From: Sinohyriopsis cumingii
Lineage: Eukaryota > Mollusca > Bivalvia > Unionida > Unionidae
Direction: 5' to 3'
Length of the DNA: 64,000 nucleotides
NCBI GenBank assembly: GCA_028554795.2
Contig: CM068829.1
Location: forward strand, 133,690,579 to 133,754,578
Shown: piece by piece, positions 15,854-34,631 of the stretch
Position numbering within the stretch: the stretch's first letter is position 1
Layout of the letters: each line of letters starts with the position of its first letter
Translations under genes and position numbers: made by a program
Notes under the pieces: model-generated
Databases searched by the model: none
Seen by the model: the letters and a program-made list of their open reading frames with translations, nothing else
What the model was told of the DNA's origin: nothing

Positions 15854-16210
15854 AGTAGTGAAGTGGAGCGATTCAGGGACAATGGGACTTACCATTAAAA
15901 ACAGGGTCCCGGCACTTTGGGGACTATGTAAATTAAACATGGGGAAAACTGGCCCGGCACTTTGGGGACAATGGGAATTAACATGGGAATCTATTTTGGG
16001 TCAGTCTAGGGACAAGGGAAATTTAACATGGGAGAAAAAAGCAATTCTAGGGACAAGAGGAATTGAACATGGGATTTTTTTTTGTTTTTTTTTTTAAAAT
16101 AAAAAAAATAAATAAAAAAAAATAAAATAAAAATAAAAGAACGGGTAGGCAATTGAAAGTCTATCTCTTTTCGAGAGATTGGAGTGGCCCTGAAAAGGGC
16201 CTTTGGGTTT
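15854..16210. repeat. Left terminal inverted repeat (~357 bp)
   Basis: The outer ~220 bp match the complement of 34631-34410 with only a handful of substitutions. Then comes a variable A/T-rich block (16070-16140), then a conserved inner part that contains a histone-type stem-loop on the minus strand. Inside the outer part a ~45-bp motif (variants of GGGACAATGGGAATTAACAT) recurs four to five times between 15880 and 16075. Confidence 0.93.
16160..16207 (-). terminator. Histone-type 3' stem-loop, left TIR
   Basis: On the minus strand the stem-loop GGCCCTTTTCAGGGCC occupies 16201-16186. It is preceded by CCCAAA and followed by ACTCC, then by a purine-rich AAAAGAGATAG element. It starts 8 nt after the stop of the 79-aa minus-strand ORF. 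The metazoan histone 3' signal has the same 6-bp stem, four-base loop and downstream purine element, which are bound by SLBP and U7 snRNP. Confidence 0.75.
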
Positions 16211-16448
16211 ATGTTAATGTATCCATTAACATAAGGGGCACCGCATTGGTCTTCTTCTTGTCCTTAGGCTGGGTCTCACTGTAGGACCGTAAATCAGGAC
16301 TCTTTTGAGGCATCCTTGTCTTTCTACGTATCCACAGACTGGTGTCTGTCCTGTGGACAACTGTCCAGTTGGATCGGACATACATGGGTATGTCCGTCCG
16401 GAACATCATTGAAGACACAAGCGTAGAAGATTGCACATCGGTCCACAT
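16209..16448 (-). CDS. Small terminal ORF of unknown function (79 aa)
   Basis: I do not recognise a family. The protein is polar with several Thr, Ser, Arg and Lys residues and no clear membrane segment. The case for a real gene rests on context. It begins with ATG, and a TATA element (CTATAAATAAG on the minus strand, about 16503-16493) lies about 50 nt upstream. It shares a CCAAT-containing divergent promoter region with the gene at 16668. Its stop codon lies 8 nt before the histone-type stem-loop in the left TIR. It mirrors the small stem-loop genes at the right end. It could still be a chance frame. Confidence 0.5.
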   Translation of the reverse strand: MWTDVQSSTLVSSMMFRTDIPMYVRSNWTVVHRTDTSLWIRRKTRMPQKSPDLRSYSETQPKDKKKTNAVPLMLMDTLT

Positions 16449-16489
16449 CTTGAGGCGCCGAGAACAGGTGGATCAATGCAGTGAACTGC

Positions 16490-16645
16490 GCTTATTTATA
16501 GGTAGAGGTAGGATTGAAACGGATTGAGTCTGTTGACCAATCCAAACACGCGTTACAAAATTCAGTCAGCCCGCATCCAATCCGAAGAGAGCAGTCTGTG
16601 ACGTCACGTGGTCTATATAGATTCGCTAACGCCTGTGTGCAGTCA
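16490..16645. promoter_or_regulatory. Divergent promoter with CCAAT, CRE/E-box and two TATA elements
   Basis: Going rightward there are CCAAT boxes near 16537 and 16576, a composite CRE/E-box TGACGTCACGTG at 16599-16610, and a TATA element TCTATATAG at 16612-16620. The ATG follows at 16668. Going leftward, CTATAAATAAG serves the 79-aa ORF. CCAAT plus TATA is also a common arrangement in replication-dependent histone promoters (established knowledge); the link here is inference. Confidence 0.6.
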
Positions 16646-16667
16646 ATCTATGCGACAGTGATTCAAC

Positions 16668-17216
16668 ATGACGGAAACTCAGAAAACGATCCATTGGGGT
16701 GCACCAGCAGTGGAGACCGCCCAAGGGAACCCGGACTTACTTTCAGAAGAGGTAAATTGGGATTTTGTGGATTTTCTTACCTCGCAAGAATTTGTTCCGG
16801 AACCTTCGTCACCTTCATTACCGCAAGTGGAGAAGTTTAGACAGAGACAGAAAGAAGAATTGGAGAAATGTATACAGCGGCAAAAGGAAGCAGAACAAGC
16901 TTTTCTCCTACAGCAACAGCAACAAGAAGAAGAGATAAGAAAAAAACAACAAGAAGAAGCAGCAAAGAAACAAGAGGGTGAAAGTCAAATTGTCACGGTA
17001 CTGTTGGACATTTTAGCGGAGTTAAGAAGTCTGACACAAATGTATCAGACTTCTTTATCACGACCGAAGAGAATTCGACCTTCCCGAGCTAAACACCCCA
17101 ACCCTGTGACTAAGCCTACCGTACCACCCTTAGTGATTTCAACCAAATCATCATCATCATCAGAAGTAGGCCTCGGCCGTGGCAAAGGCTTAAGTCAGCT
17201 AAAGTTGATTGCTTAA
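16668..17216 (+). CDS. Gln/Glu-rich coiled-coil accessory protein (182 aa)
   Basis: Family not recognised. The N-terminal ~50 residues are acidic with aromatic residues (WDFVDFL). Residues ~60-105 form a strongly charged coiled coil rich in Gln, Glu and Lys (FRQRQKEELEK, a Gln run, then EEEIRKKQQEEAAKK). A leucine-rich helix follows (VTVLLDILAELRSL), then a basic Pro/Ser tail ending in a Gly-rich stretch. The start at 16668 is the first ATG downstream of TATA (16612). A longer overlapping frame at 16514 lacks a promoter and is a shadow. The TAA lies 23 nt before a perfect histone-type stem-loop. A regulatory or DNA-associated early protein is possible but unproven. Confidence 0.8.
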   Translation: MTETQKTIHWGAPAVETAQGNPDLLSEEVNWDFVDFLTSQEFVPEPSSPSLPQVEKFRQRQKEELEKCIQRQKEAEQAFLLQQQQQEEEIRKKQQEEAAKKQEGESQIVTVLLDILAELRSLTQMYQTSLSRPKRIRPSRAKHPNPVTKPTVPPLVISTKSSSSSEVGLGRGKGLSQLKLIA

Positions 17217-17238
17217 ACTCACCCCTACACCAAAAATA

Positions 17239-17279
17239 GGCCCTTTTCAGGGCCACCCACGTCTCTCGAAAAGAGATAC
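17239..17279 (+). terminator. Histone-type 3' stem-loop after the coiled-coil gene
   Basis: GGCCCTTTTCAGGGCC at 17239-17254 is followed directly by ACCCAC, then by TCTCTCGAAAAGAGATA about 8 nt downstream. The stem has six perfect pairs with a TTTC loop. This is essentially the textbook histone signal, with a candidate U7-binding purine tract (GAAAAGAGA). Confidence 0.85.
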
Positions 17280-17491
17280 ACTTTCAATCGCCAATAATTC
17301 AAAAAAAAAACCATTTTACCCCTATAGTACGTGTATATGAGTGCGTGAGCGTAGCTTCTTATTTAAAATCAAAACTCAAAGACACTTACCTTTTTTGTAC
17401 CTAATTTATTCTTTTATAAATAGTTACAATCCAATTCACAATTCACAACAGAGCACTTTAAAAAGTACATTCACTTCTTCTGTCTGACTGT
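17280..17491. other. Intergenic; poly(A) signal for the minus-strand gene
   Basis: An AATAAA on the minus strand (17410-17405) lies about 85 nt beyond the stop of the zinc-knuckle gene and is a plausible polyadenylation signal. The rest shows nothing. Confidence 0.5.
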
Positions 17492-17917
17492 TTATTCTCT
17501 CTGTTTTTTAAATTTCTTCGCCGTCATAGTCTTTTCCTCCTCTTCCTCCTCACTTTCTTCCCTTCTTCTTTTCTTCTCCTGTTTCTTTTTCTTCACCTGT
17601 CTGCTATCTTCCTCTGAAGAATCCCTCTCTTCTTCTGACTCCTCTTGTTTCTTTTTTGGGCAATCTGGAGACCAATGTCCTTTTTCTTGACAATAATAAC
17701 AGGTATCTTGACTTTTGTCTCTTTTAACCCCTGTTTTTCTTTTTTGACGCTCTGGACACTCTGAAGACCAATGCCCTTTCTTTTGACAGATATAGCAAGT
17801 ATCTTCACTTTTATCTCGAAAAGAAGGAAAGTAGTCCGAAGGCTGGTCTGAAGAAAATTTTCTAATGACCCCTCGCAAAGCTCTGATGAAACGTTCGATT
17901 TGGTTTGTCTCTTCCAT
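17492..17917 (-). CDS. Double CCHC zinc-knuckle protein (141 aa)
   Basis: Two Gag/CNBP-type zinc knuckles of the form CX2CX4HX4C are plain: CYICQKKGHWSSEC at residues ~44-57 and CYYCQEKGHWSPDC at ~72-85, with basic linkers. Such knuckles bind single-stranded nucleic acid. The C-terminal ~55 residues alternate acidic runs with Lys/Arg runs and look nuclear. I chose the ATG at 17917: the frame extends to 17965 only through a GTG, and a TATA-like ACATAAAAGGG on the minus strand lies ~57 nt upstream of 17917. It is divergent from the polymerase gene, sharing a ~130-bp promoter region. Unlike the terminal genes it has an AATAAA downstream and no stem-loop. Confidence 0.85.
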   Translation of the reverse strand: MEETNQIERFIRALRGVIRKFSSDQPSDYFPSFRDKSEDTCYICQKKGHWSSECPERQKRKTGVKRDKSQDTCYYCQEKGHWSPDCPKKKQEESEEERDSSEEDSRQVKKKKQEKKRRREESEEEEEEKTMTAKKFKKQRE

Positions 17918-17969
17918 CGTTGTGCTCGGTTTGAGAGTGAAATGAATAGTGAAAGGACAAGACACACAC

Positions 17970-18010
17970 CCTTTTATGTAAGCTGGTCTGCCATGACTAT
18001 AAATTAGTCT
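17970..18010. promoter_or_regulatory. Back-to-back TATA elements for the zinc-knuckle and PolB genes
   Basis: ACATAAAAGGG on the minus strand (about 17980-17970) and CTATAAATT on the plus strand (17998-18006) sit ~20 bp apart. Each is ~50-57 nt from its own ATG. Confidence 0.6.
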
Positions 18011-18051
18011 ATGGTGTTTAAACTTGAGTCATTTGACGTTTTGCACTCAAG

Positions 18052-21000
18052 ATGAAACGATCCAATTCATTTGAGAAGAAAGAAGAAGAAAGTAAGAGGT
18101 AGAAACGTGATCTATCGCCTCGTACCAGGGCTGAAGTCTTGTCACAAATTCATGCCAGTGATTTTAAAGAGGACATGAGTGAACCAGAATCCAAACCCTC
18201 TAAACAAAGTTCGCCACCCTTAGTCAACCCTGAAAAATACTATTCCGTTCGAGAGACCGAAAAGCGCTCCTCTAGAAAATTTAGAACCACGGCTTACAAA
18301 TACACGGTGAAGTTTAAAGATTTTAAGTCCGAAGTACCGTTAGAGAATGCAGAAGGGTTCATCACTGGGGTGTGGGATTCTTTGCTCACCACAATCAAGC
18401 GACAATATTCAACCCAAAGAAGACGATCGCTTGAGACTCTCCATACAACACGACGGTTTGAAATCCCCTGTTTGGATCGAGTTTAGCACCCCTGCAGAAT
18501 TGACCGCTTCCAAAGTCATGGACAAGATTCAACACGTGCAACAAACCAATGACCAGTTTGACATCACCGATGGAAAAGCCACACTCGACATGACCAACGT
18601 CTCTCCTCCTCAAGGGACCGGACAACGCAATAAGGTGTTATTGGTGAACGACCTTCGCAGCACCAAAAAGAGTCTCGTCATAATTCACAATTCTCAAAAC
18701 CAGATGTGTTTAGCCCGAGCCATCGTGGTGGGACGAACCTATGCCGACAAGAACGACACGGCTGAATGGAAAAGAGACTGGGAGAACATTCGAAAATCGA
18801 ACCGAGCCAAACAACGAAGTGAAGCAGAACTCCTGTTGCAACAAGCCGGCCTGTCCAAAGACACACCCTGCGGCATTCCTGAAATGCAAAAATTGCAAGA
18901 TGTCCTAGCTCCATTCTACACCTTGAAAGTGCACCCTCAAGAAGTGCGCGGACCTCTGTTGTTTCGAGGGAAAGACTTTAAGGATGGAAAATACATTAAT
19001 GTCTATTATCACGATGACCATTTCGATACCATTACCAGTATCACTGCATTCCTGGGATACAGTTATTACTGTGAGAAATGTGACTATGGCTATAAAAATC
19101 GACAGCAACACAAACATTGCGGATCGAAATGCTCAGGATGTTTAGCCTCTCCACCCTGTCTGAGCGAAGGGCAAAAACCATTGCATTGTCCTGCTTGTCT
19201 GCGCACGTTTGTCAGCCCTGCCTGTTACCAACAACATCTGAAGACGCAAGGTTCACAGCAGAAATGTGCTTGTCAACTCCTGAGATTGTGCCCTACGTGT
19301 GGACAAGGCATACGTACCAATAATGCCAAGGCACACGTATGTTCAGGAAAGAAAAAATGTCACATTTGTCACCACATCGTGGACTTGGAACACCAATGCT
19401 ACGTGCAAATATACCAACCCCCACCAGAGAAAGAGGATGGACACAAGAAGAAAGGCAATTTCATCTTTTTCGATTTCGAATGCATGCAAGAGACCGGTAT
19501 TCACATTCCTAATTTCTGCGTGGCTCATCGAGCGTGCGAGAAGTGTATTCAAGAACCTATCTTCAGTCATTACCCTCACTGCAGCAAGATTCCCGGAGGG
19601 CGTGAAAAAATCTTTCGGGGACCGAACACGCTGGCCGATTTTGCCCAATGGGTCTTAGACCCCATCGACAAGACGTGGAGCCAAGAGGACATCGAACGTT
19701 ACGGAGATTGTCATTGTCATGCCACAGTGATGGCTCACAATTTCTCCTAATACGATGGACAGTTTCTTTTGAGATACTATACGGAACAAGGCACCGAACG
19801 TCCTAAAGTCACTTTGAACGGAGCCAAAATCATTTTCATGCAAGTGGGACAAGTGCAGTTTAAAGATTCGATGAGTTACTTAGCCATGCCTTTGAGTCGA
19901 ATGCCTAAAACATTTGGAATGACAGAAATGGCTAAAGGGTACTTTCCACACTTTTTCAATACGGAAGCCAATCAACACGCCGTTCTACCCCATTTACCTG
20001 AGGCTCACTATTACGACCCTGACAACATGCGTACCGAACAACGAGAAGCTTTCTACGCTTGGTACCAGGCTCACGCCTCGGACCCTTTCGGCTTTCAGGA
20101 AGAAATGTTAAAGTATTGTCGTTCCGACGTGGACATTTTACGACGTTGCTGTGGAAAATTTCGAGAACTTTTCATGGAACACGGAGGGGTCTATCCTTTG
20201 AAAGAAGCTTGCACCATTGGCAAAGCGTGTTCCTTAGTGTACCGGCAACGATTCATGCCTGAAAACACCGTGGCTGTCATCAGTCCCCAAACGACCAACT
20301 ATGTCAAACGTCAATACTCGGTCAAAGCCCTACGCTGGTTACATTACCTGTGCGACAAGGAGGACAAATGCATTCAGCATGCCCAAAACGGAGGAGGCGA
20401 AAAGACCATCGAACGCAATCGGTCGATGGCTGGGACTTAGAGAACCCCAAGATCATGTACGAGTTTAACGGTTGCTTATTTCACGGATGTCCCGTCTGTT
20501 ACCCTGACCGTGGCACTAAAAATCAGTTTTTACAACGAATCATGGAAGACTTGTACCAGGCCACTTGTCAGCGACGCCTAAAGTTAGAACAGGAAGGATA
20601 CCAAGTGGTGGAAATGTGGGAACACGAGTACGATCACCGTTTGAAAACCGATCCCGAGTTTAAACGCCTCGTGGAAAGTTACCAGTTCATGGACCCGCTG
20701 AACCCGAGAGATAGTTTGTACGGAGGAAGGACCAATGCCACCTGTTTGCTGTACCAAGCCGACGAAGAGAAAGGAGAAGAAATCAAATACTTGGACGTGT
20801 GTTCGCTGTATCCCTACGTGTGCAAATATTGTCGCTTTCCTGCAGGGCACCCACAATTGTTAACGGAACACATCGACCTGAAAAACATTCGACAATACGA
20901 AGGCTTGATCAAGTGCAAAGTTTTGCCTCCCACGGACTTGTACCATCCCGTCTTACCTCACCATTGCCAAGGCAAACTGATGTTTCCTTTGTGCCGTACT

Positions 21001-22111
21001 TGTGCCGAAACGTGCAACCAAGACCAACCTTGTCAGCACACCCAGGAAGAACGGGTCTTGACGGGAACCTGGGTCAGCGTGGGATTGTTCAAAGCTCTGG
21101 ACATGGGATACCGACTGTTAGAAGTGTACGAAATTTGCCACTTTCCTAAGACACAACAATACCACAAGGGTGACCCTACTCAGAAAGGCATTTTCGCCGA
21201 CTACGTGGAAACTGAAACAAGAAGCCAGCGGCTATCCTTCCTGGTGTCACACTCCCGAAGACCAAATACAATTCAAAGAGAAATACTACGACCAAGAAGG
21301 CATCACTTTAGACCACATCGAGAAAAACGAAGGCAGGCGATCGTTTGCCAAAGTGATGTTAAATTGCTTGTGGGGTAAAATGGCACAACGACCGTGTTTA
21401 CCCAAGACGGAATATTTGACACAACCTTCCTGCTACTTCCAGATGATTCACGACAAAACCAAATACATGAAACACGTGGACGTCGTTCGAGAGGATTTGA
21501 TCTTGGTCAATTACGAAGAAGATCTGGACTTTGTACAAGACGACCCTTTTGGAAATGTCATCATTGCGGCTTACGTGACAGCTCATGCTCGCTTAAAATT
21601 GTACGAATCTTTAGAACTGTTAGGGGAACGCGTCCTGTACTTTGACACGGACAGCTGCATTTACATCCATCACCCGAGTTAACAGCACCCTGACATCGAA
21701 GGAGACCGTTTAGGAGCCTGGACAGACGAGCATCCCGACGACAAGATTCTAAGTTTCGTCAGTGGCGGTCCAAAATATTACGGCTACGAATACCGTGACC
21801 CACAAAGAGAAGTGCATACGAAGTGTAAAGTGAAAGGATTGACTCTGAATTATCGTACCAGTCGTGTGGTCAACTTTGGGGTATTGAAAGAAGCCTTGCA
21901 ATCTGGAGAGGATGAACACTTTAAAGTGACCACCTATCAACCAAACAAGATTGTACGTTTACCCACTCACCACATCGTCAGTCGACCCTTGGAAAAAGTC
22001 TACCAAATCGTGTACCAGAACCGAGTGCGACTTCCCAATCATTTCACCTTACCGTATGGACACGTCGGTATTGGTATGTATATAAAAAGGAAACCTAGGC
22101 AAGATCGATAG
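18052..22111 (+). pseudogene. PolB: Protein-primed DNA polymerase B, broken
   Basis: This is the replicative polymerase of the element. After a Lys-rich leader comes a Cys/His-rich zinc-binding region (about 19070-19400), then the 3'-5' exonuclease motifs: FFDFECMQE (ExoI), MAHNFS..YDGQF (ExoII) and YCRSDVDIL (ExoIII). The polymerase motifs follow: DVCSLYPYV (motif A), KVMLNCLWGKM (motif B) and YFDTDSCIY (motif C, catalytic DTD). I place the start at ATG 18052, ~50 nt after TATAAA. In-frame stops lie at 18100 (TAG), 19748 (TAA, inside ExoII) and 21680 (TAA, just after motif C). Frameshifts fall near 18405, 20410 and 21210. Catalytic residues survive, but the gene cannot give a full product. 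The end at 22111 overlaps the next promoter (TATATAAAAAGG, about 22077). Confidence 0.93.
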
Positions 22112-22143
22112 TTCGTTGTGACTACCAAGACCTAGCGAACAAG

Positions 22144-22779
22144 ATGAATACTTTCAGAGAAACACAAAACAAGTTTAGAAAGGCACAATTCAAGTTTGGG
22201 GCTTCTGAAGTGGAATGCGATTGTGAGCCTTGCGATGGGAACGATGCTGTACGCTGTGACCTTAGCGATGCAGTAAAGCATCATGGGAACTTTGTTCTCA
22301 CTACCCCTATCATGGAAAGTGATGCTGTGTGTGTCAAACCTGAGGGATGCGAAAGCGATGCCTCTCGTCCTCTTGGACATTTTACTGGGTTTCGTTTTAA
22401 AGGTGGATGTTCACCTTCACGTCTACCTCCCTACGGATGTCATCTAGCCCTGAGCAAACTCCTGTCCATGTCACCCAGCCCTCATCGAAACGAACCTGTG
22501 AAAGACGAATATTCGTTTCCTGTGCGTTTGTCGGAATACTGCGACTTTGAAAATCGTCTTCAATCGTTCAAAGGAAAATGGTCTAAGTATCTGGGGGGAC
22601 CGACCCCCGAAGAATTAGCCAGAGCCGGATTGTTCTACTTGGGCGAAGGAGATAAAGTCAAGTGCTTCAGTTGCGGTGTGTCACTTCACCACTGGGAACT
22701 GCAAGATTCGGCCTACGTTGAACATGCTGGATGGTCACCGAATTGTCATTACTTAGCCTTAGTGGGACCGACACATTGA
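22144..22779 (+). CDS. BIR-domain (inhibitor-of-apoptosis-like) protein (211 aa)
   Basis: The C-terminal ~70 residues form a baculoviral IAP repeat. It has an upstream GPTPEELARAGLFY helix, then zinc ligands in the canonical CX2CX16HX6C spacing (CFSCGV ... EHAGWSPNC), with the conserved Trp and Asp between them (HHWELQD). In IAPs this fold binds caspases or IAP-antagonist peptides. There is one BIR and no RING. The N-terminal ~130 residues have scattered Cys and Asp and no fold I know. The reading frame is intact, and it starts ~60 nt after a TATA element at 22077. An anti-apoptotic role is inferred from the fold. Confidence 0.88.
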   Translation: MNTFRETQNKFRKAQFKFGASEVECDCEPCDGNDAVRCDLSDAVKHHGNFVLTTPIMESDAVCVKPEGCESDASRPLGHFTGFRFKGGCSPSRLPPYGCHLALSKLLSMSPSPHRNEPVKDEYSFPVRLSEYCDFENRLQSFKGKWSKYLGGPTPEELARAGLFYLGEGDKVKCFSCGVSLHHWELQDSAYVEHAGWSPNCHYLALVGPTH

Positions 22780-22801
22780 AGTAACTTACCATAATCTGTT
22801 T

Positions 22802-23242
22802 ATGGATACTTTACAAGAGAACATTCGCACTTTGCCTGTGGAGTTGAGAGAAAGGATTTACCGAGAGCTGGTCAAAATACAAGTGAAACGTAAAGAACAA
22901 TTGCATCCGTTACGTCACCGGTGTTTGAACCACTGGTACCTGAATGCTATACAAGGACTGATTCAGTTGCAAGTGTTCCATTGGACAGACATTGATCAAC
23001 GATCACCTAGTTTTAAAAAGGATTGGTTTGCTATTGATGATTCTATCTACTACATTGTAAACTTACTGCATCGAATTCCAGAGGAAGAGTTAACGAATTA
23101 ACAACATCTTGTACAGAATGTCAACTTAGTGAAAGAGGAAACTTCTGAACGAATTGTAATGTGTAAATTAGTAACTAGACGATTTAAATTCGACACTGAA
23201 GTAAAACCATGTCTGTGTCAGACAAAAGAGGATTTAGCATGA
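22802..23242 (+). pseudogene. First copy of a duplicated gene of unknown function
   Basis: The N-terminus (MDTLQENIRTLPVELRER) and the next ~45 residues are nearly the same as in the following gene at 23250. The frame has a TAA at 23099. Beyond it the same frame continues to TGA at 23240 with clear similarity to the rest of the paralogue (for example QHLVQNV against QHILRGI, and RRFKF against ARFRF), so the TAA interrupts the gene. The protein is helical and basic with the motif LPVELRERIYREL, loosely like an F-box start. I do not recognise the family. Confidence 0.7.
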
Positions 23243-23249
23243 CCTATTC

Positions 23250-23741
23250 ATGGATACTTTACAAGAGAACATTCGTGCTTTGCCTGTGGCGTTGAGAGAA
23301 CGCATTTACCGAGAGCTGGTCAAAATACAAGTCAAACATAAAGAACAGTTGCATCCGTTACGTCACCAGATCCTTAACCACTGGTACCTGAATGGTATAA
23401 GAGGACTGATTCGTCAGAAATTGTTTCAGTGGTCAGACCTTGTTGAACACTTTCAGTTAGTGAATGAACTAAACGTTCGTAATTTTGGTTACTTCGAGAT
23501 TCATCTAGTGCAACGTATTGAGGAAGACGGGTTCAAGGATTACCAACATATTTTACGTGGAATCTGCGTAGCGGAAGACGAAACACCTAGACAAACTCTG
23601 ACGTTTCGGTTACAGTATGCAAGATTTAGATTCCCTACTGGAGAACGAAGATGTCTAGTTAGAAAGTACCTTTATTGCTTCCGAAACAAAGAGACTATAA
23701 AATCAGGAATCCATGCCACGGCTTATGTCACATGTAATTGA
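23250..23741 (+). CDS. Second copy of the duplicated gene (163 aa)
   Basis: Intact paralogue of the gene at 22802. Residues 1-55 are ~85% identical to it by eye and the rest is more diverged. It contains HWYLNGIRGLI and a basic C-terminal half with several Arg-Phe pairs (ARFRF). The start ATG at 23250 lies 8 nt after the TGA of the first copy, so the two are direct tandem duplicates. Its 3' end overlaps the next ORF in another frame, with a TATA element (ACTATAAAATC, about 23694) inside it. Family unknown; the LP..LRERIY start loosely recalls F-box or SOCS-box starts, which is speculation. Confidence 0.75.
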   Translation: MDTLQENIRALPVALRERIYRELVKIQVKHKEQLHPLRHQILNHWYLNGIRGLIRQKLFQWSDLVEHFQLVNELNVRNFGYFEIHLVQRIEEDGFKDYQHILRGICVAEDETPRQTLTFRLQYARFRFPTGERRCLVRKYLYCFRNKETIKSGIHATAYVTCN

Positions 23742-23937
23742 ACAGATTCCGTGGAAGGAACTCAATGACCATATTCAAACCGTGGATCATTGCCATCGAT
23801 TATTACAAAAACTGTATCCATTCAATTTGGGTCGACAAGTGGTGTGTGTCTTAGTGACTTGTTTTCTGGGATTTCGTTTACCAGCCGATTCCTTGTGGAC
23901 TCTTTACGAACAGTACTTACCACCCCAATGGCCTTAA
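23713..23937 (+). CDS. Small ORF of unknown function, overlaps next gene (74 aa)
   Basis: The ATG comes shortly after TATAAAA at about 23696, so translation might begin at this ATG or at the Met five residues on. The protein is helical and hydrophobic, with FNLGRQVVCVLVTCFLGF in the middle and YEQYLPPQWP at the end. The NLGR segment faintly resembles the BH1 motif of Bcl-2 proteins (NWGR), but this is not enough for a call. Its end overlaps the ATG of the next ORF (23928) by 10 bases, a compact arrangement typical of viruses. Confidence 0.5.
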   Translation: MPRLMSHVIEQIPWKELNDHIQTVDHCHRLLQKLYPFNLGRQVVCVLVTCFLGFRLPADSLWTLYEQYLPPQWP

Positions 23938-24432: not shown

Positions 24433-24439
24433 AACATTC

Positions 24440-24445
24440 AATAAA
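24440..24445 (+). terminator. Poly(A) signal AATAAA
   Basis: Eight nt after the stop at 24432 and just upstream of the TATA of the ATPase gene. Confidence 0.6.
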
Positions 24446-26362: not shown

Positions 26363-26376
26363 CACACAAACACAAA

Positions 26377-27478
26377 ATGGAAAAAGTATTAGCCAGCATT
26401 TACTACGATCCCTCGCATCCTGCAGGTTACGCAGGAGTTCAAAAATTGTATCGTGCTGCCAAAATGCGACTGAAAAGTCTCCGTTTGCCTCAAGTGCAAC
26501 GATGGTTACAAGAACAAGCTGCCTACACTTTACACAAACCCATTCGAGGCAAGTTTTCCAGAAGTCGCACCCAAGTGGAAGGCATCGATCATCAATGGCA
26601 AGCCGATTTAGCCGGTGTCTCTCATTTGGCCAGCTACAATCGTGGCTATAAATATTTATTTTGTGTCATCGACGTCTTTTCCAAATTTGCCTGGGTCATG
26701 CCCTTGACTTCCAAATCGATCAGCGAGTTAGTGCGACCCCTGCAACGGGTGTTGAAACAAAGTGGTCGTCACCCTCTTCGATGGCAAACGGACAAAGGTA
26801 CCGAATTTCTGAACCAAGCTTTCCAAAAAGAATTAAAGAAACGTGGCATTCATTTTTTTACCACCGAGAATCCCGAAACCAAAGCCAGCATCGTGGAACG
26901 TTTTCAACGCACTTTGAAAGAACGCATGTGGAAATATTTTACGCATCACCACACTCTGAAGTACATCGACATCTTACCGCACCTGGTGCAAACGTACAAC
27001 CAATCTTACCATCGAAGCATTGGACGTGCCCCGCAAGAAGTGACTCCCGAGAACGAAGTGCTGGTGTTTGAGAGCCTGTTTGGTACGTCCCCGACGAGGG
27101 CTGTCCCAAAGAAAAGTGGAGAGTTGACCGTAGGAGATTGGGTACGCATTGGCAAAACCTTTCGACAAAGGTTACTTACCTAACTGGACGACCGAATTGT
27201 TTCGTGTCACTGGACGAGTGCATGGCCGTCATCCTGCCGTCTATAAATTGGAAGACATGAATGCAGAAGTGTTCAAAGGAACGTTTTATTTGCCCGAGGT
27301 ACAACGTTTCACCAAAACAGAAGACGACGTGTACGACATCGAAAGCATTCTCGAACGCATAACCCGTAAAGTGGGTAAACGACGTGTCAAAGAAGTCAAA
27401 GTACGTTGGAAAGGATATCCACCCAGTTTCGATTCTTGGATCGACGCTTCGCAAGTCATCGACTATAAAAAGAAGTGA
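26377..27478 (+). pseudogene. Retrovirus-like DDE integrase with chromodomain, frameshifted
   Basis: The integrase inserts the element by strand transfer. An N-terminal helical region (YYDPSHPAGYAGVQKLY) leads to the rve core: first Asp in HQWQADLAG, second in RWQTDKGTEF, and catalytic Glu in SIVERFQRTLKERMW. This is followed by QTYNQSYHRSIGRAPQEVT, typical of rve domains. Near 27175 the frame shifts, and the second part carries an SH3-like stretch and a C-terminal chromodomain (VYDIESILERI ... VKVRWKGYPPSFDSW) at ~27330-27475. Chromodomains read histone methyl marks and can steer integration to chromatin. I use ATG 26377; the longer frame opens only with a GTG. All DDE residues survive. Confidence 0.92.
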
Positions 27479-27483
27479 CCATC

Positions 27484-27813
27484 ATGCCCTTTCACACAGA
27501 CGCAGCTACGTCGACCACTCCTTCACCCAGTTCTTCTCTGCAAGATTTACAGAAACAACCCTTGTGGGTGTGGTGTGGAGAACGTGTGCCTAAAACGCAA
27601 ATCGTCTTTTTCTGCCAAATCTTCGTGGTGTATTGTGTCATCGGGGCAGCCATTGCCAATTTAAGTTTGCAACAAGGAGACAAACAATTGTGGACCATTT
27701 TATTGAGCAGTTGCATCGGTTACCTGCTTCGAAATCCCCTCCCTCAAATTCTCTTCCAACGGGAACCAGGGGAACCTTGTGTCCAGTGCCAGTGTCAGTC
27801 ACCACTCCAATAA
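27484..27813 (+). CDS. Small two-pass membrane protein conserved in Polintons (109 aa)
   Basis: After a Ser/Thr-rich leader, VWCGERVPKTQIVFF leads into a first membrane helix (FCQIFVVYCVIGAAIANL). A short polar link (QQGDKQLW) follows, then a second helix (TILLSSCIGYLL) ending RNPLPQ and a Cys-rich tail (CVQCQCQ). The pattern VP...F.Q..V.Y.V....NL ... LW..LLSS.IGYLL is shared by a small membrane protein of many Polintons and adintoviruses, sited as here between integrase and minor capsid. ATG 27484 lies five bases after the integrase stop; CTATAAAAAG at 27465 is its likely TATA. Role unknown; a virion membrane or egress function is inferred. Confidence 0.78.
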   Translation: MPFHTDAATSTTPSPSSSLQDLQKQPLWVWCGERVPKTQIVFFCQIFVVYCVIGAAIANLSLQQGDKQLWTILLSSCIGYLLRNPLPQILFQREPGEPCVQCQCQSPLQ

Positions 27814-27891
27814 CAACAACAACCCTATTTTGGGCGGAGACACGCCTCTGACGTCCAGTAACCCCTCGGACAGCCACAGAACTCTGGAATT

Positions 27892-28824
27892 ATGAGTCAC
27901 CAAAACCAATTTTACTTAACCTTACCCAGTGACAGTTCCATGGATGTGTTTCCCAAGAACACGTTGTGCTGTTACACGACCAAATTACCTCAGACCATCC
28001 CATTAGATCACGAAGCCCATTGGGAAGTGGCTTTTGTAGAAATCATTCACCCGACCCAAATCCTCAATGTCCTTCCCTATCAAAATTCTTTTGACGTGGA
28101 AGTTCATGACGAACAATTGCAACAGTACTTGGATACCTATGACAAATATGACAAGAAAACCCCTGGCACAAAAAATCAAAAGTACACCACCTATCACTTG
28201 TTCGTTCCCCCAGGCTATTATTTTAGTGGTCAACATTTGGTCAGCACCATAACCTTCAGGTTTAATGTCGTGTTTCTGAAAGCTTTGGAAAGTGTCAAAA
28301 AAAGTGTCACCATGGAATACCACAAAGCAGGTCGTCGCTTCTTGGTGAAATTTGACGGGAGTAAAATCGTGTCCCTTTAATTTTGTCCTGAATTGTTTGA
28401 CATGTTGGGTGGAGACATGGACATAAGAAAGGCCATGCTCAAGAAAAACGAATTACCAATCATTTACGACAACGAGTCTTTTAGCAAGTTATTTCGTGCC
28501 CCGGTAGAACTGAACCAAGGACTGAATTTGATGTTTGTGTACTCCGATGTGGTGGAGTACAACGTGGTGGGACACACCTCCGTGCCGTTACTGGGTGTCA
28601 ATCCTTTCAAAGTGGATTCTGCCACGGTCACTGACGAGGAAGGTGGAAACACTTACCACGTTCACCGCGAATTTGTACATCCTCACTATTTGCCTGTCAG
28701 CAAGTCGTATTTGGACACGGTCAATATTGCTATAAAAGGAGATCTGGGACAAAATATTTCATTCACCAAAGGAAAAGTCACGGTGAAACTCCATTTTCGA
28801 AAACGGTTCTCTCACGATTCGTAA
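27892..28824 (+). pseudogene. Minor capsid protein (penton, single jelly-roll), interrupted
   Basis: The start FYLTLPSDSSMDVFPKNT and the following HWEVAFVEIIHPTQILNV are signatures of the Polinton penton protein, which fills the five-fold vertices. The frame is stopped by TAA at 28378 and resumes at once (FCPELFDMLGG) to TAA at 28824. The second half ends in a strand-rich region (LDTVNIAIKGDLGQ ... VTVKLHFRK) typical of the jelly-roll C-terminus. No frameshift, just the one nonsense codon. It is followed four bases on by the core-protein gene; a TATA-like CTATAAAAGG lies inside its 3' part at about 28730. Confidence 0.88.
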
Positions 28825-28827
28825 GTC

Positions 28828-29253
28828 ATGTATCCAGTGTACCGAGGGGTTGCTCGACAGCGAGGACACGGTTTAGGAGATATGTTAAAATCGGCCTTTC
28901 GTTCGGTGGCCCCGGTGTTGAAACCGATGGTGACACGCGGATTGCACGCCTTGAAAGATGCGGCACTGACACAAGGCAAAGAATTTCTCCAAAATGTCAT
29001 CATCGACAAACAAAATCCTAAAGAAGCCTTCATGACGGCAGGCTAAAATGTCTTGCTGTAAACGGGCAAAGACCTTTTGGGCCGACGAGACACACCTATA
29101 AATGCCCTGCACGCTACCGAGTCAATCATTCAGCAAGGACAAGGCAGAAAGAGACGAAGAAGAAAACACCCTTTCACCAGACTTCACACTTCTAAAGCTA
29201 GAAAGGAAAAGAAAAGAAGAACCGTTCGAGACTTAGACGTTTTCGATTATTGA
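28828..29253 (+). pseudogene. pX/pVI-like basic core protein, interrupted
   Basis: The first part, MYPVYRGVARQRGHGLGDML, resembles the Gly-rich N-terminus of adenovirus-like pX/pVI proteins. It is followed by an amphipathic stretch (FRSVAPVLKPMVTRGLHAL) and LQNVII. TAA codons at 29044 and 29059 interrupt the same frame. It then continues with LLGRRDTP, an Arg/Lys cluster (GRKRRRRKHPF), a second basic block (KARKEKKRR) and a short acidic end (VRDLDVFDY) to TGA at 29251. Such proteins condense the genome in the virion and carry adenain cleavage sites. It sits between penton and hexon. Confidence 0.72.
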
Positions 29254-29266
29254 GAAAGAGAAAAAA

Positions 29267-30582
29267 ATGATGCATCGAGAGTCTTGTGCCTGTTCCAAGT
29301 CGGAACTGGATCTGTTTGCCATGCCCCCACCATGATGACCATGCAAGAATCCCAGTGGGTGGAATTTCATCCCGCCTCCTCTTTGACGGATTCCGCTCCC
29401 ATCGAGTTTGAAATCAAAGGACAACCCGAAGATTACATCGATCTGAATAGCAGTTACCTGTATTTGAAAGTGAAAGTGATCAAAACGGACAACACCAATC
29501 CAGGAGGCGATGCTAGAGTAGCTCCTGTCAACAATTTCATGCATTCCTTGTTCAGCGAAGTGGACTTGTACTTGAATAACAAACTGGTCAGCAGCAGCAT
29601 GGATACTTACCCATATCGTGCCTACCTGGAAAATCTCTTGACGTACGGAAAAGAAGCCAAGAATACTCATCTGGATGCTTGCGTGGTATGGAAACCTGAC
29701 ACGGCAGGTGTAGGCACGTTTAGCGACACAGTCCTGACAGAAGATGACAATGTGGGGTTTAACGACCGTCGTAAGAAAAGTCTGTAATGGCGAAGTTTAG
29801 AACTGATGGATCGTTTGCATTTGGACATGTGGTTGCAAGAAAATTATTTGCAGAACGGGGTGGATATCCGTCTGAGACTGAATCGTAGCAGTGCCGCTTT
29901 CCATTTGATGGCCCATGCCAATGAATACAAAACTATCATTCAAGAAGCCCGACTTTACGTGCGTCGTGTGGAAGTGTTACCTAAAGTGGGAAACGACGTC
30001 AGTCAGACGTTGAGCAGAACGACCGCCAAGTATCCGATGCGACGCGTAGAAGTGAAAACGTTCACCATTCCCGCTGGACAGCGATCTATGATCGAAGATC
30101 ATCTGTTCCAAGGACAGTTACCCAAACGTTTGATTGTTGGTATCGTCAGGAATTCAGCCTTCAACGGAACCCACGATCAAAATCCTTTTGAGTTTCAACA
30201 TTACAATGTGTCCAAGATCGAAGTCAGTCGCGACGGCAAGACCTTGTGTACCCGACCCTTTGAGCCCAACTTTGGTGTCGCGAAGAATTATTTGAGATAG
30301 TACTTGTCCCTGTACGAAGCCACCGAACAGTTAGGAACCAGCACAAGTCACGGTATTTCGTACGACGATTATGAAGGAGGCTATGCTTTGTGGGGTTTTG
30401 ATTTCACTCCAGACCAAGGCAGCGACGAGGGACATTTCCACCCTATAAAATCGGGTCAGATTCGTGTGGAACTTCAGTTTGCAAATCCACCTCCAGATCA
30501 CACAGTGAACGTCCTCCTGTATGCAGAATTTGACAATACCATAGAAATCAACAGTTTGAGAGAAGTCATTCTAGACTATTAG
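29267..30582 (+). pseudogene. Major capsid protein (double jelly-roll hexon), broken
   Basis: The tandem ATGs at 29267/29270 open a frame with SCACSKSELDLFAMPP, a hallmark start of Polinton hexons. A frameshift near 29330 follows. The next frame gives the first jelly roll (VEFHPASSL, SAPIEFEI, YIDLNSSYLYLKVKV, HSLFSEVDLYLNN). TAA at 29785 and TAG at 30298 interrupt it. Between them lies the second jelly roll (DRLHLDMWLQ, VDIRLRLNRS, KTFTIPAGQ, NPFEFQHYNV), and after the TAG the C-terminal part with GYALWGFDF and LQFANPP. Total length ~435 codons is normal for the family. The fold builds the T-number capsid shell. Confidence 0.92.
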
Positions 30583-30632
30583 AAGCCGTGGAATACTGTT
30601 ATCCCTCTTTGCCTGGTGGAGAAACTTTGAAG

Positions 30633-31085
30633 ATGGAATGTGAGGAGACCGGGGAAGAAGAATCTCAAGAAAAAGACGAAGAAGTTATCATGATGAAGTC
30701 AAGATGGCCAGAACAAGAAGCCCATTTAGTCTCCTGTTTTGCCAAACACTTGGTCGAAAAAATGACGGAATTGATCAAGAAAGATTACTATGGATGTCAA
30801 AACGATCATCCCAGTCAAATTCAGCACGATAAATGCCTAATGCTGAGTCAAGAAGAAAAATTGAACGAGTATCTGGACGAAGCTTGGAGTCTTATCTCGG
30901 ACGAAGTCGTGTTGCATCAGTGGTATAAAGACTTGCGTGAACATTCTTGTCCACCATTAACCACTCACGAGATCCATCGTATCGAAGCTATCCTGAATCA
31001 GAGTGGGGAGACGAAGCGAAGAAACGGTTATTTGTCAGACATTTTCAAGCAAAAAGTCAGGATCGAATTGATCACTTATTATTAG
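30633..31085 (+). CDS. Uncharacterised Polinton protein with a conserved Cys/His/DHPSQ motif (150 aa)
   Basis: I use ATG 30633; the frame reaches 30588 only via GTG. An acidic start (EETGEEESQEKDEE) leads into a helical domain with YYGCQNDHPSQIQHDKCLM at residues ~53-71. This Cys/His grouping could bind a metal, and I recall similar spacing from late genes of other adintoviruses without a known role. It ends in a helical stretch (DEAWSLISDEVVLHQWYKDL) and a basic tail. TATA-like CCTATAAAAT lies at about 30444. It overlaps the poorly defined 5' part of the protease gene. Confidence 0.65.
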   Translation: MECEETGEEESQEKDEEVIMMKSRWPEQEAHLVSCFAKHLVEKMTELIKKDYYGCQNDHPSQIQHDKCLMLSQEEKLNEYLDEAWSLISDEVVLHQWYKDLREHSCPPLTTHEIHRIEAILNQSGETKRRNGYLSDIFKQKVRIELITYY

Positions 31086-31107
31086 CTGTGAAGAAGAAAA
31101 AACACAC

Positions 31108-31628
31108 AAAACATAGATACCTGGGAACTTTATTACCTTTTGAACCACAGTTCGTACACGGCTTCTTGGAATCCTGTCGTATGTGCTAAAGATGAACTCC
31201 CTCATCGCAAACCTCAAGACCATCTAGCCTATGTGATCAACAGGGACGACAGTCATCTCCCAGGACCCCACTGGGTAGCCGTCTACTTTCCTCAAGAAGG
31301 ATGTGTGGAATATTTCGATTCGTATGGATTGCCCCCTTTGGAAGACGATATCATTGACTTTATGAGAAGAAATGCTCAGACCACCCGATTCAATAATGTG
31401 AAATTACAAGACACAGATTCCTTGGTGTGTGGACAATATTGTGTGTATTTTCTGCATCATCGCAGCCTGGGCTATTCCTTAGAACATTTAGTGACTCATT
31501 TTGATCCTCGTTCTTCTTCTAGAAACGATGTGAAAGTAGATCAATGGTTTTGTGACCATTATGCTTATCTTTTGTCTCAAGCTAGGAAACGTAGTGTCCA
31601 TCAATGGCCTAATGACTTCCAACAGTGA
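31108..31628 (+). pseudogene. Adenain-type cysteine protease, probably frameshifted near its start
   Basis: The maturation protease of adenovirus-like capsids. The catalytic set is present: His in GPHWVAVYF, the acidic residue in CVEYFDSYG, the oxyanion Gln in KLQDTDSL and Cys in VCGQYCVYFL. The C-terminal half (WFCDHYAYLLSQ) is also typical. The likely N-terminal strand (RYLGTLLPFE) lies in a different frame up to ~31165. I found no ATG in either frame at the right place, so the 5' end is uncertain. The main frame starts at a TTG (31140). An AATAAA follows at 31773. Confidence 0.85.
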
Positions 31629-31906
31629 AAATCACAGTTTCATTCACAACGTTCTCAGCCTTGTCCAATGGAGAAAAAAAAATGTTTGTCATTTGAAACA
31701 AATTATTTGATGTTATTTTGTTGGATTATTGTTAAAAATGTTAGAGTTGTTTATTAGTGTTAAGTGATTTTGAATAAAAAGTGTTGTGTTCTGAAAAAAT
31801 GCCTTGGTCTTTTGTTTGGCTATAAGAATTTTGATTCATGCTCTTTGACTTCTTACTATCCCTCTCATGGCACTCATTGAACGTTCCGGCTCGAAAACCG
31901 TGGAAG
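31629..31906 (+). other. 3' region of the protease gene with a poly(A) signal
   Basis: AT-rich, no coding. AATAAA at 31773-31778 is followed by GTGTTGTGTT, a GU-rich element as expected at a polyadenylation site. Confidence 0.6.
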
Positions 31907-31932
31907 GATGTTTTCCTTCACGTCCGCGCTTT
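31907..31932 (+). promoter_or_regulatory. Repeated promoter box, copy 1
   Basis: GATGTTTTCCTTCACGTCCG continuing CGCTTT. The same box recurs at 32761, 33548 and 33615. All copies lie 60-150 nt before a small stem-loop gene. The GC-rich core (CACGTCCGCGC) stands out in AT-rich DNA. Confidence 0.65.
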
Positions 31933-31994
31933 GACTTTAAAGCCAGGATAGCCTCTAGTCTAACCATCCATTGTCGACTCATCCTCCTACGAAG

Positions 31995-32351
31995 ATGTGC
32001 TCCAAACTAGCTAAGCTAAACGAAGCCTACGTGAATTTGCATAGGGTCAGACACAGTCTGATACCGAAGCCAGAAGAGATAGAGAATGTGAGAATGTTAA
32101 AAGTCACTGAAGACCTGATATAAGAGCTCTTCAGAGAAGAAGTGAACAGGGAGAAAGAAGAATGGACAGAGAAGTACAGACATCAGAAACAGCAGAGAGA
32201 GCAGCAACAGCAGCAACAGGAGCAGCAACCTGAACCTGACAGAGCCTTTGTCGATTGTCGTATCGACACCAAAGAGTTCTTCTCTTTCCGAAGAAGCAGA
32301 CCTATCGTCAGAAAGTCTATCGTCAGAGGACATCGCATTCTTAGAAATTAA
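31995..32351 (+). pseudogene. Terminal small gene 1 (paralogue of the gene at 32850), interrupted
   Basis: The first residues, MCSKLAKLNEAYVNLHRVRH, align with those of the gene at 32850 (LAKLLELHVHLEYARR). TAA at 32121 interrupts the frame after 42 codons. The same frame runs on as a coiled coil (LFREEVNREKEEW, then a Gln-rich stretch) and a basic tail with a short IVR repeat (RPIVRKSIVRG) to TAA at 32349. A histone-type stem-loop follows 29 nt on. Family unknown. Gln/Glu coiled coil and genomic setting resemble the gene at 16668. Confidence 0.65.
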
Positions 32352-32379
32352 AAGATTGCCATAGCAAACAAAAAAAAAC

Positions 32380-32419
32380 AGCCCTTTTCAGGACTACCCA
32401 ATACTCTAGAAAAGAAATA
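32380..32419 (+). terminator. Histone-type 3' stem-loop after terminal gene 1
   Basis: AGCCCTTTTCAGGACT at 32380-32395 with ACCCA directly after, then CTCTAGAAAAGAAATAG. One of the six stem pairs is lost (C opposite A), while the outer pair is A-U in place of G-C. Confidence 0.65.
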
Positions 32420-32760
32420 GTAATCCATTTACCAATGTGTGTATGTAGAGTAGTGTGAATATAAACACTGACTCTTTTTTATAGTGTGAGTAAATGTGTT
32501 TGTGTATATGATTGTGTGTTGTAAGTGCTCACGTACGTTTGTGTGGATAGTAGATTATGATGATGTTTTTGTTTGCTGTTTGACGTATGGGGAGAGTAGA
32601 TTTGGGGTTTGATTGGATTGCCTTGCATATGTGAATAGTATATTATTTGATTAATAAAATTTTAGAATAGTGATGGGTAGTGTAAAAAGTGAGTTAGTGT
32701 TTCTTTTAGGTCCGCGCGTTGTTTGGTTATGATCTAGGTAAGATCAATTTTGTTTTAGGG

Positions 32761-32795
32761 GATGTTTTCCATCACGTCCGCGCTTTCAGTATAAA
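32761..32795 (+). promoter_or_regulatory. Repeated promoter box, copy 2, with TATA
   Basis: GATGTTTTCCATCACGTCCG continuing CGCTTT, then TATAAA at 32790-32795. The ATG of the next gene follows at 32850, ~55 nt on. Confidence 0.7.
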
Positions 32796-32849
32796 TTAAA
32801 AATCGTTCGGCAGTCTAGCTACCCTTGTTGATTGATCAACACCACCAGA

Positions 32850-33167
32850 ATGAACACCAGACTAGCTAAACTGCTTGAACTTCATGTACACCTGGAATAT
32901 GCCAGGCGTATAGTGAATGAGCTGGCTGCAGAGGCCATCGTAGAAGAGGGAAGGATGAAAGAGGAGGAGAGAAGAAACAAAGAAGAGGAGGAGAGAAGAA
33001 ACAAAGAAGAGGAAGAAAAGGAGAGAGGAAATTTCAGAATCCCAGAGACAGAAGATTGGGGTTCTGAAGCCAGTTATCCCGCCTCTGCTCTCCCCCAAAA
33101 AAGAGTGAAAAGAGACTGGGGAAGAAGATGTGTGTGTGGTGCCAGGCCTGGAAGGTGCCATCATTAA
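32850..33167 (+). CDS. Terminal small gene 2: Glu/Lys-repeat coiled-coil protein (105 aa)
   Basis: ATG 32850 is the first after TATA; the frame extends to 32832 only by a TTG. Residues 1-30 are a leucine-rich helix shared with terminal gene 1. A repeat of EERRNKEEE units follows (three copies), then a Pro/Ser linker and a basic, Cys-containing end (RRCVCGARPGRCHH). The stop is 29 nt before a perfect histone-type stem-loop. In an alternative frame the last ~100 nt also stay open through the stem-loop. Unknown family. Confidence 0.65.
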   Translation: MNTRLAKLLELHVHLEYARRIVNELAAEAIVEEGRMKEEERRNKEEEERRNKEEEEKERGNFRIPETEDWGSEASYPASALPQKRVKRDWGRRCVCGARPGRCHH

Positions 33168-33196
33168 CCAGGTGTCACTGGAGTTCAAAAACAAAC

Positions 33197-33237
33197 AGCC
33201 CTTTGCAGGGCTACCCAATACTCTAGAAAAGAAATAG
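33197..33237 (+). terminator. Histone-type 3' stem-loop after terminal gene 2
   Basis: AGCCCTTTGCAGGGCT at 33197-33212 pairs perfectly over six bases with a TTGC loop. It is followed by ACCCA and then GAAAAGAAATAG. Compared with the TIR copies, the outer pair has changed from G-C to A-U on both sides, a compensatory change. Confidence 0.75.
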
Positions 33238-33547
33238 TAATCGATTTGCCAATGTGTGTATGTAGAGTAGTGTGAATATAAACACTGACTCTTTTTATTT
33301 GTGTGAGTGTGTGTTTTTTATGTGTGTGTGTGTGTGTGTATGTGTGTGTGTGTGTGTTTGTAAGCGCTCACGTACGTTTGTGTGGATAGTAGATTATTGG
33401 GTTATGTAAGAGCTTAAGTTGGTTCGTGTGAATAGTAGATTAGGGTTTCATTTTAATGCTTTGCGTGTGTGGATAGTAGATTCGGGGTTTGTTTATTGCT
33501 GTTTCACGTATGTGGATAGTAGATCATATGAAATGAGAAAAGTAGGT

Positions 33548-33640
33548 GATGTTTTCCTTCACGTCCGCGCGTTGTTTGGTTATGATCTAGGTAATATAAA
33601 TTTTGTTTTAGGGGGATGTTTTCCATCACGTGCGCGCTTT
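33548..33640 (+). promoter_or_regulatory. Repeated promoter boxes, copies 3 and 4
   Basis: Box copies at 33548-33573 and 33615-33640 (the latter CACGTGCGCGC, creating an E-box) precede the gene at 33699. A clear TATA was not found; AATATAAAT at 33594 lies between the boxes. Confidence 0.6.
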
Positions 33641-33698
33641 CACTGTAAGAACCCACAGTATTAGTCGTTCGCACCGTTCTAAGGAATAAACAAAGAAG

Positions 33699-34142
33699 AT
33701 GGAGGTGACAAAATTATTTAACGATTTGAGACATAGCTATTTTTGGTTCATGGATGGGACTTATGTAGTAGAAAGATTGAATAAGGAAGGAAGATTTGAA
33801 GGTAGCCTGAACAATGTGAAGAGTCTTGGAGTAGCAAAAGATCAAATAGGGGGAATGATTGACGAAGAAGTAGAAAGAATCAGAGGATTCATTGACCCAC
33901 CTTACGTGAGAGTAGGTACTTTAAAGGAAGCCTTGGATCATATCATAGAAGTCATGAGCTTCCTAGAAAATAGCTTTCATTGGACTGACTGGTGGTACGT
34001 AAAGTGGGGTTGTAACCAGTTGATTAAAACACAAGAACTAATTAGAGAGGTAATGAAAGAAGAAGTGATGAAGATAAAAGAAAAATGGAGCAAAGAGAGA
34101 AAGGAAGAAGAGAATAGGAAGAAGAAATTAGAGTTTGAATGA
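33699..34142 (+). CDS. Terminal small gene 3: aromatic-rich helical protein (147 aa)
   Basis: No family recognised. The N-terminal half is rich in Phe, Tyr and Trp (SYFWFMDGTYVVERLNKEG), with an acidic helix (GGMIDEEVERIRGFIDPPY). Then come EVMSFLENSFHWTDWWYVKWG, and a Lys/Glu coiled coil to the stop. After TGA 34140 the same frame stays open through an acidic stretch and across the stem-loop to TAG at ~34323, so the TGA might be a mutation. The stem-loop in the right TIR is 143 nt beyond the TGA, farther than in the other four genes. ATG 33699 is the first after the promoter boxes. Confidence 0.65.
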   Translation: MEVTKLFNDLRHSYFWFMDGTYVVERLNKEGRFEGSLNNVKSLGVAKDQIGGMIDEEVERIRGFIDPPYVRVGTLKEALDHIIEVMSFLENSFHWTDWWYVKWGCNQLIKTQELIREVMKEEVMKIKEKWSKERKEEENRKKKLEFE

Positions 34143-34275
34143 TTAAATAACAACTGGATGAAGATCCAACAGAAATTTGGACTGGATAACAGAGGAGGAG
34201 AAGAAGAGGAAGAAGAAAGGAATTTTGGGAAAGATAAGGGGATGGTGGAAGAAGTGGAGGAGTTAAAGGAAGAAG

Positions 34276-34631
34276 AAACCCAAAGGCCCTTTTCAGGGCC
34301 ACCCACATCTCTCGAAAAGAGATAGACTTTCAATTGCCTACCCGTTTTTTTTTTTAATTTTATTTTATTTTATTTATTTATTTATTTATTTTTAAAAAAA
34401 AAAAAAAAAATCCCATGTTCAATTCCCCTTGTCCCTAGAATTGCTTTTTTCTCCCATGTTAAATTTCCCTTGTCCCTAAACTGACCCAAAATAGATTCCC
34501 ATGTTAATTCCCATTGTCCCCAAAGTGCCGGGCCAGTTTTCCCCATGTTAAATTTACATAGTCCTCAAAGTGCCGGGACCCTGTTTTTAATGGTAAGTCC
34601 CATTGTCCCTGAATCGCCCCACTTCACTACT
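34276..34631. repeat. Right terminal inverted repeat (~356 bp)
   Basis: Complement of 15854-16210, ending CTTCACTACT. Substitutions against the left copy are visible, for example at the positions pairing with 15867, 15923, 15933 and 16013. The T/A-rich central block (34344-34408) differs in length and order from the left copy. Confidence 0.93.
34279..34325 (+). terminator. Histone-type 3' stem-loop, right TIR
   Basis: CCCAAA, then GGCCCTTTTCAGGGCC at 34285-34300, ACCCAC, and CTCTCGAAAAGAGATAG. This is the closest of the five to the metazoan histone consensus, including the CCAAA 5' flank and ACCCA 3' flank. Confidence 0.85.

Follow-up and report, generated by a model that had tools for sequence, protein, structure and literature searches.

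How does a virus-like mobile element come to end its terminal genes in the manner of a histone gene, and what would follow for the expression of those genes? The locus that raises this question lies in a 64-kb window (64,000 nucleotides, the whole stretch of DNA analysed here) from the bivalve Sinohyriopsis cumingii, in which a Polinton element of 18,778 bp occupies positions 15854-34631. Behind its terminal genes, namely an outward-reading gene at the left end and the genes U1, C1, C2 and RIGHT, we find in sense the complete cis-signal of a replication-dependent histone mRNA 3' end. The signal is present in many copies and matches that of two host histone genes. The terminal genes thus carry the histone 3'-processing signal of the host and, judging from the sequence, are likely to use that pathway.

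Each of five sites joins a stem-loop to a purine-rich histone downstream element (HDE), at the following positions (distances in nucleotides, nt):

16186-16201, minus strand: LEFT stem-loop, six pairs, 3' flank ACTCC; 35.9 bits with RF00032
16164-16172, minus strand: LEFT HDE GAAAAGAGA, 13 nt past the stem
17239-17254, plus strand: U1 stem-loop, six pairs, flank ACCCA; 35.0 bits with RF00032; 22 nt past the stop
17268-17276, plus strand: U1 HDE GAAAAGAGA, 13 nt past the stem
32380-32395, plus strand: C1 stem-loop, one C-A mismatch, flank ACCCA; 23.3 bits, below the cut-off; 28 nt past the stop
32409-32417, plus strand: C1 HDE GAAAAGAAA, 13 nt past the stem
33197-33212, plus strand: C2 stem-loop, six pairs with an A-U closing pair, loop TTGC; 23.3 bits, below the cut-off; 29 nt past the stop
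33226-33234, plus strand: C2 HDE GAAAAGAAA, 13 nt past the stem
34285-34300, plus strand: RIGHT stem-loop, six pairs, flank ACCCA; 40.3 bits with RF00032
34314-34322, plus strand: RIGHT HDE GAAAAGAGA, 13 nt past the stem

The original prediction had placed five stems here, and pattern scans recovered every one. Its description of a 6-bp stem with an ACCCA-like flank holds for most sites and fails in the C1 mismatch and the LEFT flank; the purine element that it had seen behind each stem is borne out at all five, where GAAAAGA begins 13 nt past the stem. The covariance-model check that it had proposed succeeded in part. Rfam Histone3 (RF00032), the sole family of 4227 above threshold in the 64 kb, gave three matches above the gathering score (34280-34325 on the plus strand, 40.3 bits; 16206-16161 on the minus strand, 35.9; 17234-17278 on the plus strand, 35.0), while C1 (32375-32421, plus) and C2 (33192-33238, plus) reached 23.3 bits against a cut-off of 34, with E values of 0.014 and 0.013 over all families. 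A match to the bacterial small RNA sbrA on the opposite strand of two sites fell below its own cut-off and was discarded.

Shuffled sequences rule out chance as the origin of the five sites. A degenerate stem-loop pattern allowing up to three mismatches occurs exactly five times in the window; 100 shuffles averaged 0.14 occurrences, with 2 as the largest count. A composite pattern (a stem of at least five pairs, a TT loop and an AC flank, with a purine core as a further condition) likewise gives exactly five sites. The purine core is there in all five, whereas 200 shuffles of the element yield on average 0.045 such sites and never more than one; taken without the core, the stem-loop pattern is weaker (shuffle mean 0.83, maximum 5). 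The composite pattern is absent from 45,216 bases of flanking DNA. All five sites stand in gene sense behind a stop, and no further gene of the window copy is followed by a site that Histone3 or a model built from the five copies detects. The closing pair of the C-type stems is A-U instead of G-C, a two-sided change that keeps the stem; the covariation reading rests on helix 1 only. The LEFT and RIGHT sites sit in the terminal inverted repeats (TIRs) and the C1 and C2 sites (32380/33197) in a duplicated cassette, so the five represent about three independent lineages. The TIRs are placed as follows:

15854-16210: left TIR, with the LEFT stem-loop at its inner edge; defined by alignment to the right TIR, with TGTGTG outside
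34276-34631: right TIR, with the RIGHT stem-loop at its inner edge; defined by repeat comparison

The signal resembles that of the host's own histone genes in stem, HDE and spacing. Histone repeats of some 8.3 kb are arrayed in tandem in the S. cumingii genome (150 of 662 candidates were scored), and two short stretches of one repeat contain the ends of genes that we read as H3 and H2B from their last residues. These ends match Histone3 at 35.9 and 38.2 bits, and their stops lie 28 and 34 nt ahead of the stems. The H3 stem is GGCCCTTTTTAGGGCC and the H2B stem GGCCCTTTTCAGGGCC, the latter identical to the LEFT, U1 and RIGHT stems. In both host genes GAAAAGA starts 13 nt past the stem, as at the five window sites, and the eight HDE letters of H3 are those of LEFT, U1 and RIGHT. 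With metazoan replication-dependent histone mRNAs in general (RF00032; the ends recognised by SLBP and the U7 small nuclear ribonucleoprotein, or snRNP), the sites share a 6-bp stem, a 4-nt loop, an ACCCA-like flank and a purine HDE. LEFT, U1 and RIGHT contain AAAGAG, the mouse HDE core which, in the accessible part of PMC7026596, pairs with CUCUUU of U7. In contrast to histone ends, the element's genes are non-histone by Pfam and lie on a mobile element, and C1 and C2 carry AAAGAA together with the A-U closing pair.

The genes that end in these sites are small (lengths in amino acids, aa):

16209-16448, minus strand: left-end outward gene, an open reading frame (ORF) of 79 aa; an overlapping frame ends at 16226; related left ORFs occur in other copies
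16668-17216, plus strand: U1 gene, 182 aa, no Pfam match; at least 150 relatives in the genome
31995-32351, plus strand: C1 gene, interrupted by an in-frame stop at 32121-32123; its pieces were examined apart
32850-33167, plus strand: C2 gene, 105 aa
33699-34142, plus strand: RIGHT gene, 147 aa up to the first stop; homologues are longer

Short distances between stop and stem had been predicted, and we measure 22 nt for U1, 28 for C1, 29 for C2, and 7 or 24 nt for the left gene, depending on the frame. The 143 nt given for the last gene proved to be an artefact of a broken copy. Three RIGHT homologues of 191-195 aa extend beyond the window copy's stop, and the C-terminus that matches them lies in another frame of the window, ending 18 nt short of the stem; among the 150 RIGHT relatives scored in the genome, many have open frames of 194-197 aa. 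Pfam finds no histone in the scanned ORFs, which rules out a histone gene remnant in the element. TATA-like words occur at -52, -54 and -60 of LEFT, U1 and C2; they mark nothing special, since the ATPase gene and RIGHT have them too (at -54 and -104) and C1 lacks one. A promoter-side repeat (GGATGTTTTCC.TCACGTCCGCGC-like) stands ahead of the three right-end genes (31894-33648). Adjoining U1 is a CCHC zinc-knuckle gene (17492-17917, minus strand) with AATAAA 82 nt past its stop.

How might such ends work? Host SLBP would bind the stem-loop and U7 snRNP would pair with the GAAAAGA 13 nt past the stem. The histone cleavage complex would cut just past the stem; for histone mRNAs, the available text of PMC6303110 puts the cut after ACCCA, 5 nt past the stem. 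The resulting mRNAs would lack poly(A) and would be synthesised and persist chiefly in S phase, which would offer favourable conditions to an element replicating its own DNA. For the terminal-gene mRNAs we infer all four features: that they are processed, that they have no tail, that SLBP and U7 act on them and that they are timed to S phase. On the simplest reading S-phase expression would follow from SLBP and U7 processing. The signal itself would once have been taken from a host histone gene and then spread by duplication. We lean towards the view that, through the host-type signal, this Polinton family makes histone-like mRNAs without a tail from its terminal genes, which are probably early genes, and so would tie these genes to S phase.

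A more modest explanation grants true histone-type 3' ends and sees in them merely a compact terminator near the ends of the element, with cell-cycle control incidental or absent. A signal that follows the stops by 7-29 nt and occupies the inner edges of the two TIRs would suit such a terminator, and the gene products have no known function. Nothing direct speaks against it; histone mRNAs with such a signal are S-phase coupled, as is well established and as the accessible part of PMC6303110 states, and we consider incidental or absent control unlikely.

Copies elsewhere in the host genome show how far the signal is kept. A Histone3 search of the 2.9-Gb genome scored 75 of 589,472 candidates, and the counts that follow are among the matches listed. 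All 75 exceeded the threshold; among 14 control genomes, one gave a weak match, below threshold. All 75 loci match the window element by blastn, with best pieces 67-97% identical. They fall behind the left gene in 29 cases, U1 in 23 and the right gene in 22, with one unclassed. An ORF of at least 30 aa ends no more than 30 nt before the stem in 66 loci, and none does so in the other nine; ACCCA is present in 74 and an A-rich core 13-14 nt past the stem in 73. The ends of the host histone genes score lower and lie outside the 75, a list that gives no count of them. Compared with each other, the LEFT and U1 sites, which follow unlike genes, have a mean identity of 0.99 over the stem-loop and 0.89 over the HDE, against 0.28, 0.30 and 0.34 in the outer flanks, the stem-loop figure being biased upward in a set that the Rfam model itself selected.

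Loci chosen by gene are free of this selection, with one overlap (L121 of the RIGHT-gene set is also among the 75). A protein search with U1 scored 150 of 30,413 candidates, 91-100% identical, of which about 127 have no internal stop by manual count. Thirty loci, including the window copy, make up the U1-chosen set, and five, again with the window copy, the RIGHT-gene-chosen set. Behind U1 the stem-loop passed a strict scan in 22 of the 30, carries one substitution in seven (three forms) and is partly deleted in one. The LEFT stem-loop was found in 29 of the 30, with six pairs in 27 and five in two. At the right end, C-type stem-loops with HDE are present in four of five loci of 3 kb; the C1 and C2 stem-loops are intact, with the A-U closing pair, in L121, L122 and L124. 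The RIGHT stem-loop is intact in two of the five RIGHT-gene loci and changed at one place in two more. One locus, L123, has a rearranged right end, with two right-type stem-loops about 1.67 kb apart (L123:437-2150) and no C-type found.

Conservation in these loci bears on a second explanation, in which the signal is a relic: it came from a captured histone gene end, multiplied by duplication and by amplification of the family, and has fallen out of use, while the genes rely on poly(A) sites further on. The copies are indeed related through TIR and cassette duplication. Some 270 nt past the C1 stem, at 32653, stands an AATAAA, and the stops of C1 and RIGHT each overlap with an ATTAAA. We compared identity in bins, counting gaps as mismatches, which lowers the figures in A/T runs. 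Dropping duplicates (L094, L111, L115, L116) and loci without a stop anchor (L095, L102, L105) left 23 sequences for U1; dropping three more without a start anchor left 20 for LEFT. On the U1 side mean pairwise identity is 0.990 in the HDE, 0.983 in ACCCA and 0.905 in the stem-loop, with 0.75-0.96 in other bins; the stem-loop is thus kept no better than its surroundings (0.75-0.98), as a relic would be. In the same loci, however, the HDE is the best-kept stretch, reaching 1.000 on the LEFT side, where the five bases before the stem stand at 0.980, the stem-loop at 0.963 and other bins at 0.23-0.87. The likeness of LEFT and U1 sites within unlike flanks also argues against a relic, as does the absence of AATAAA within 300 nt of all five terminal stops. 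We think a relic very unlikely.

That the hairpins work as DNA, when the element replicates or transposes from its TIRs, with histone likeness secondary, deserves hardly any credence: two of the five copies do lie within TIRs, but three lie outside them, all five stand in gene sense behind a stop, and host histone genes have a matching HDE, spacing and stem; on these grounds a DNA-only hairpin was rejected.

Against the preferred reading, that the terminal genes use host histone 3' processing, stands the modest preservation of the U1 stem-loop, and several other points weigh on the same side. Covariation controls fail to separate the five close copies from shuffles. The LEFT flank departs from ACCCA in more than half of the 29 U1-chosen loci that have the stem-loop (ACCCA in 12, ACTCC in 13, ACTCA in 4). 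Among the five right-end loci the C-type stem-loop with HDE was not found in one, and no C-type stem was found in L123; the RIGHT stem-loop was not found in one of the five RIGHT-gene-chosen loci. Missing AATAAA is a weak mark of terminal genes, because only three of 14 other gene ends have one within 300 nt (at 82, 8 and 145 nt). Beyond the HDE, the match between window and host falls to 0.25-0.62, and H3 and H2B there agree at 0.62 and 0.35; the window copies are no closer to the host histone ends than those are to each other, so capture from the host is not demonstrated. Finally, none of nine distant Polinton-like contigs (L002-L010) has a Histone3 match, a complete element end being established in none of them.

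These contigs are among 11 loci from an integrase alignment search of a prokaryote collection. Run over L002-L012 and the window, the model built on the five sites recovered those five at 69-74 bits and otherwise nothing above 16.2 bits, and in the six of the nine distant contigs checked for inverted repeats there was no clear TIR pair. Seven protein-query scans of IMG/VR confirmed no relative; one IMG/VR match to the exact stem-loop pattern was antisense to an ORF, scored 21.9 bits (below the cut-off) and is taken as chance. A tblastn search with the integrase in INPHARED found none. Conservation in relatives, which the original prediction had asked about, extends to copies in the same genome, gene-chosen ones included, and not to the nine distant contigs. 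Its interpretation fares likewise: Rfam, the genome copies and the two host histone genes support the cis-signal, and a histone-type signal as a general Polinton trait is not supported.

The assignment of the sites to the terminal genes of a Polinton, also part of that prediction, holds. The TIRs are about 357 bp long, agree at 340 of 360 aligned positions, start with AGTAGTGAAG and so begin AGT; a 6-bp target duplication, TGTGTG, flanks the element on both outer sides. Pfam names among the ORFs are DNA_pol_B_2, rve integrase, Pox_A32 ATPase, BIR and CCHC knuckles. The type B DNA polymerase (putatively protein-primed) and the retroviral-type integrase that define Polintons are thus present by Pfam. 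The polymerase region is split over several frames, and the window element is therefore a decayed copy. ORFs at the places expected for the capsid proteins (double jelly-roll major capsid protein, penton) have no Pfam match; their tentative placement follows gene order and a visual comparison with L002, L004 and L007, contigs whose gene order, judged by eye, is similar. PolB, rve integrase, A32-like ATPase, AGT-starting TIRs and a 6-bp target duplication are shared with Polintons/Mavericks and adintoviruses, from which the window element differs in the histone-type ends of its terminal genes. Named relatives of the integrase come from Patella, Branchiostoma and Saccostrea. The BIR (inhibitor of apoptosis) domain lies in an ORF at 22144-22779 on the plus strand, and a 215-nt stretch occurs twice (84% alike) within neighbouring function-unassigned ORFs at 22786-23448. 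The flanking host DNA holds an ORF with a MIEAP (mitochondria-eating protein) domain (39797-40213, minus strand) and pieces of a non-LTR reverse transcriptase (43027-44913, minus strand) with named relatives in Branchiostoma, Petrolisthes, Aldrovandia, Ridgeia and Plakobranchus.

Among the open-licence PMC matches listed, no paper connects histone stem-loops to Polintons, Mavericks or adintoviruses. A single precedent emerged, and it is non-coding: the available part of PMC3169594 describes histone hairpins in the Tm1-HH transposons of root-knot nematodes. Like the S. cumingii element, Tm1-HH / Cg-1 is a transposon family with a histone hairpin; in contrast, it is of Mutator/Foldback type and non-coding, with its hairpin between repeats and not behind protein-coding terminal genes. 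The element described here is coding and has a 6-bp rather than a 9-bp target duplication. Histone-like proteins have been reported in adomaviruses and a tailtomavirus (PMC11071296), in the accessible text of which the word stem-loop does not occur.

If our reading is right, the terminal genes of this Polinton would give rise to a class of mRNAs that code for non-histone proteins and yet bear a complete histone-type 3' end, in a virus-like element. Such transcripts would escape libraries made from poly(A) RNA, so that total RNA is the material in which to look for them. Many non-histone sites beside similar histone genes in one genome would also be useful for learning what SLBP and U7 need. 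The host-type histone ends suggest that the element ties its terminal genes to DNA replication, and Polintons of this kind would then link host DNA replication directly to the expression of their own genes.

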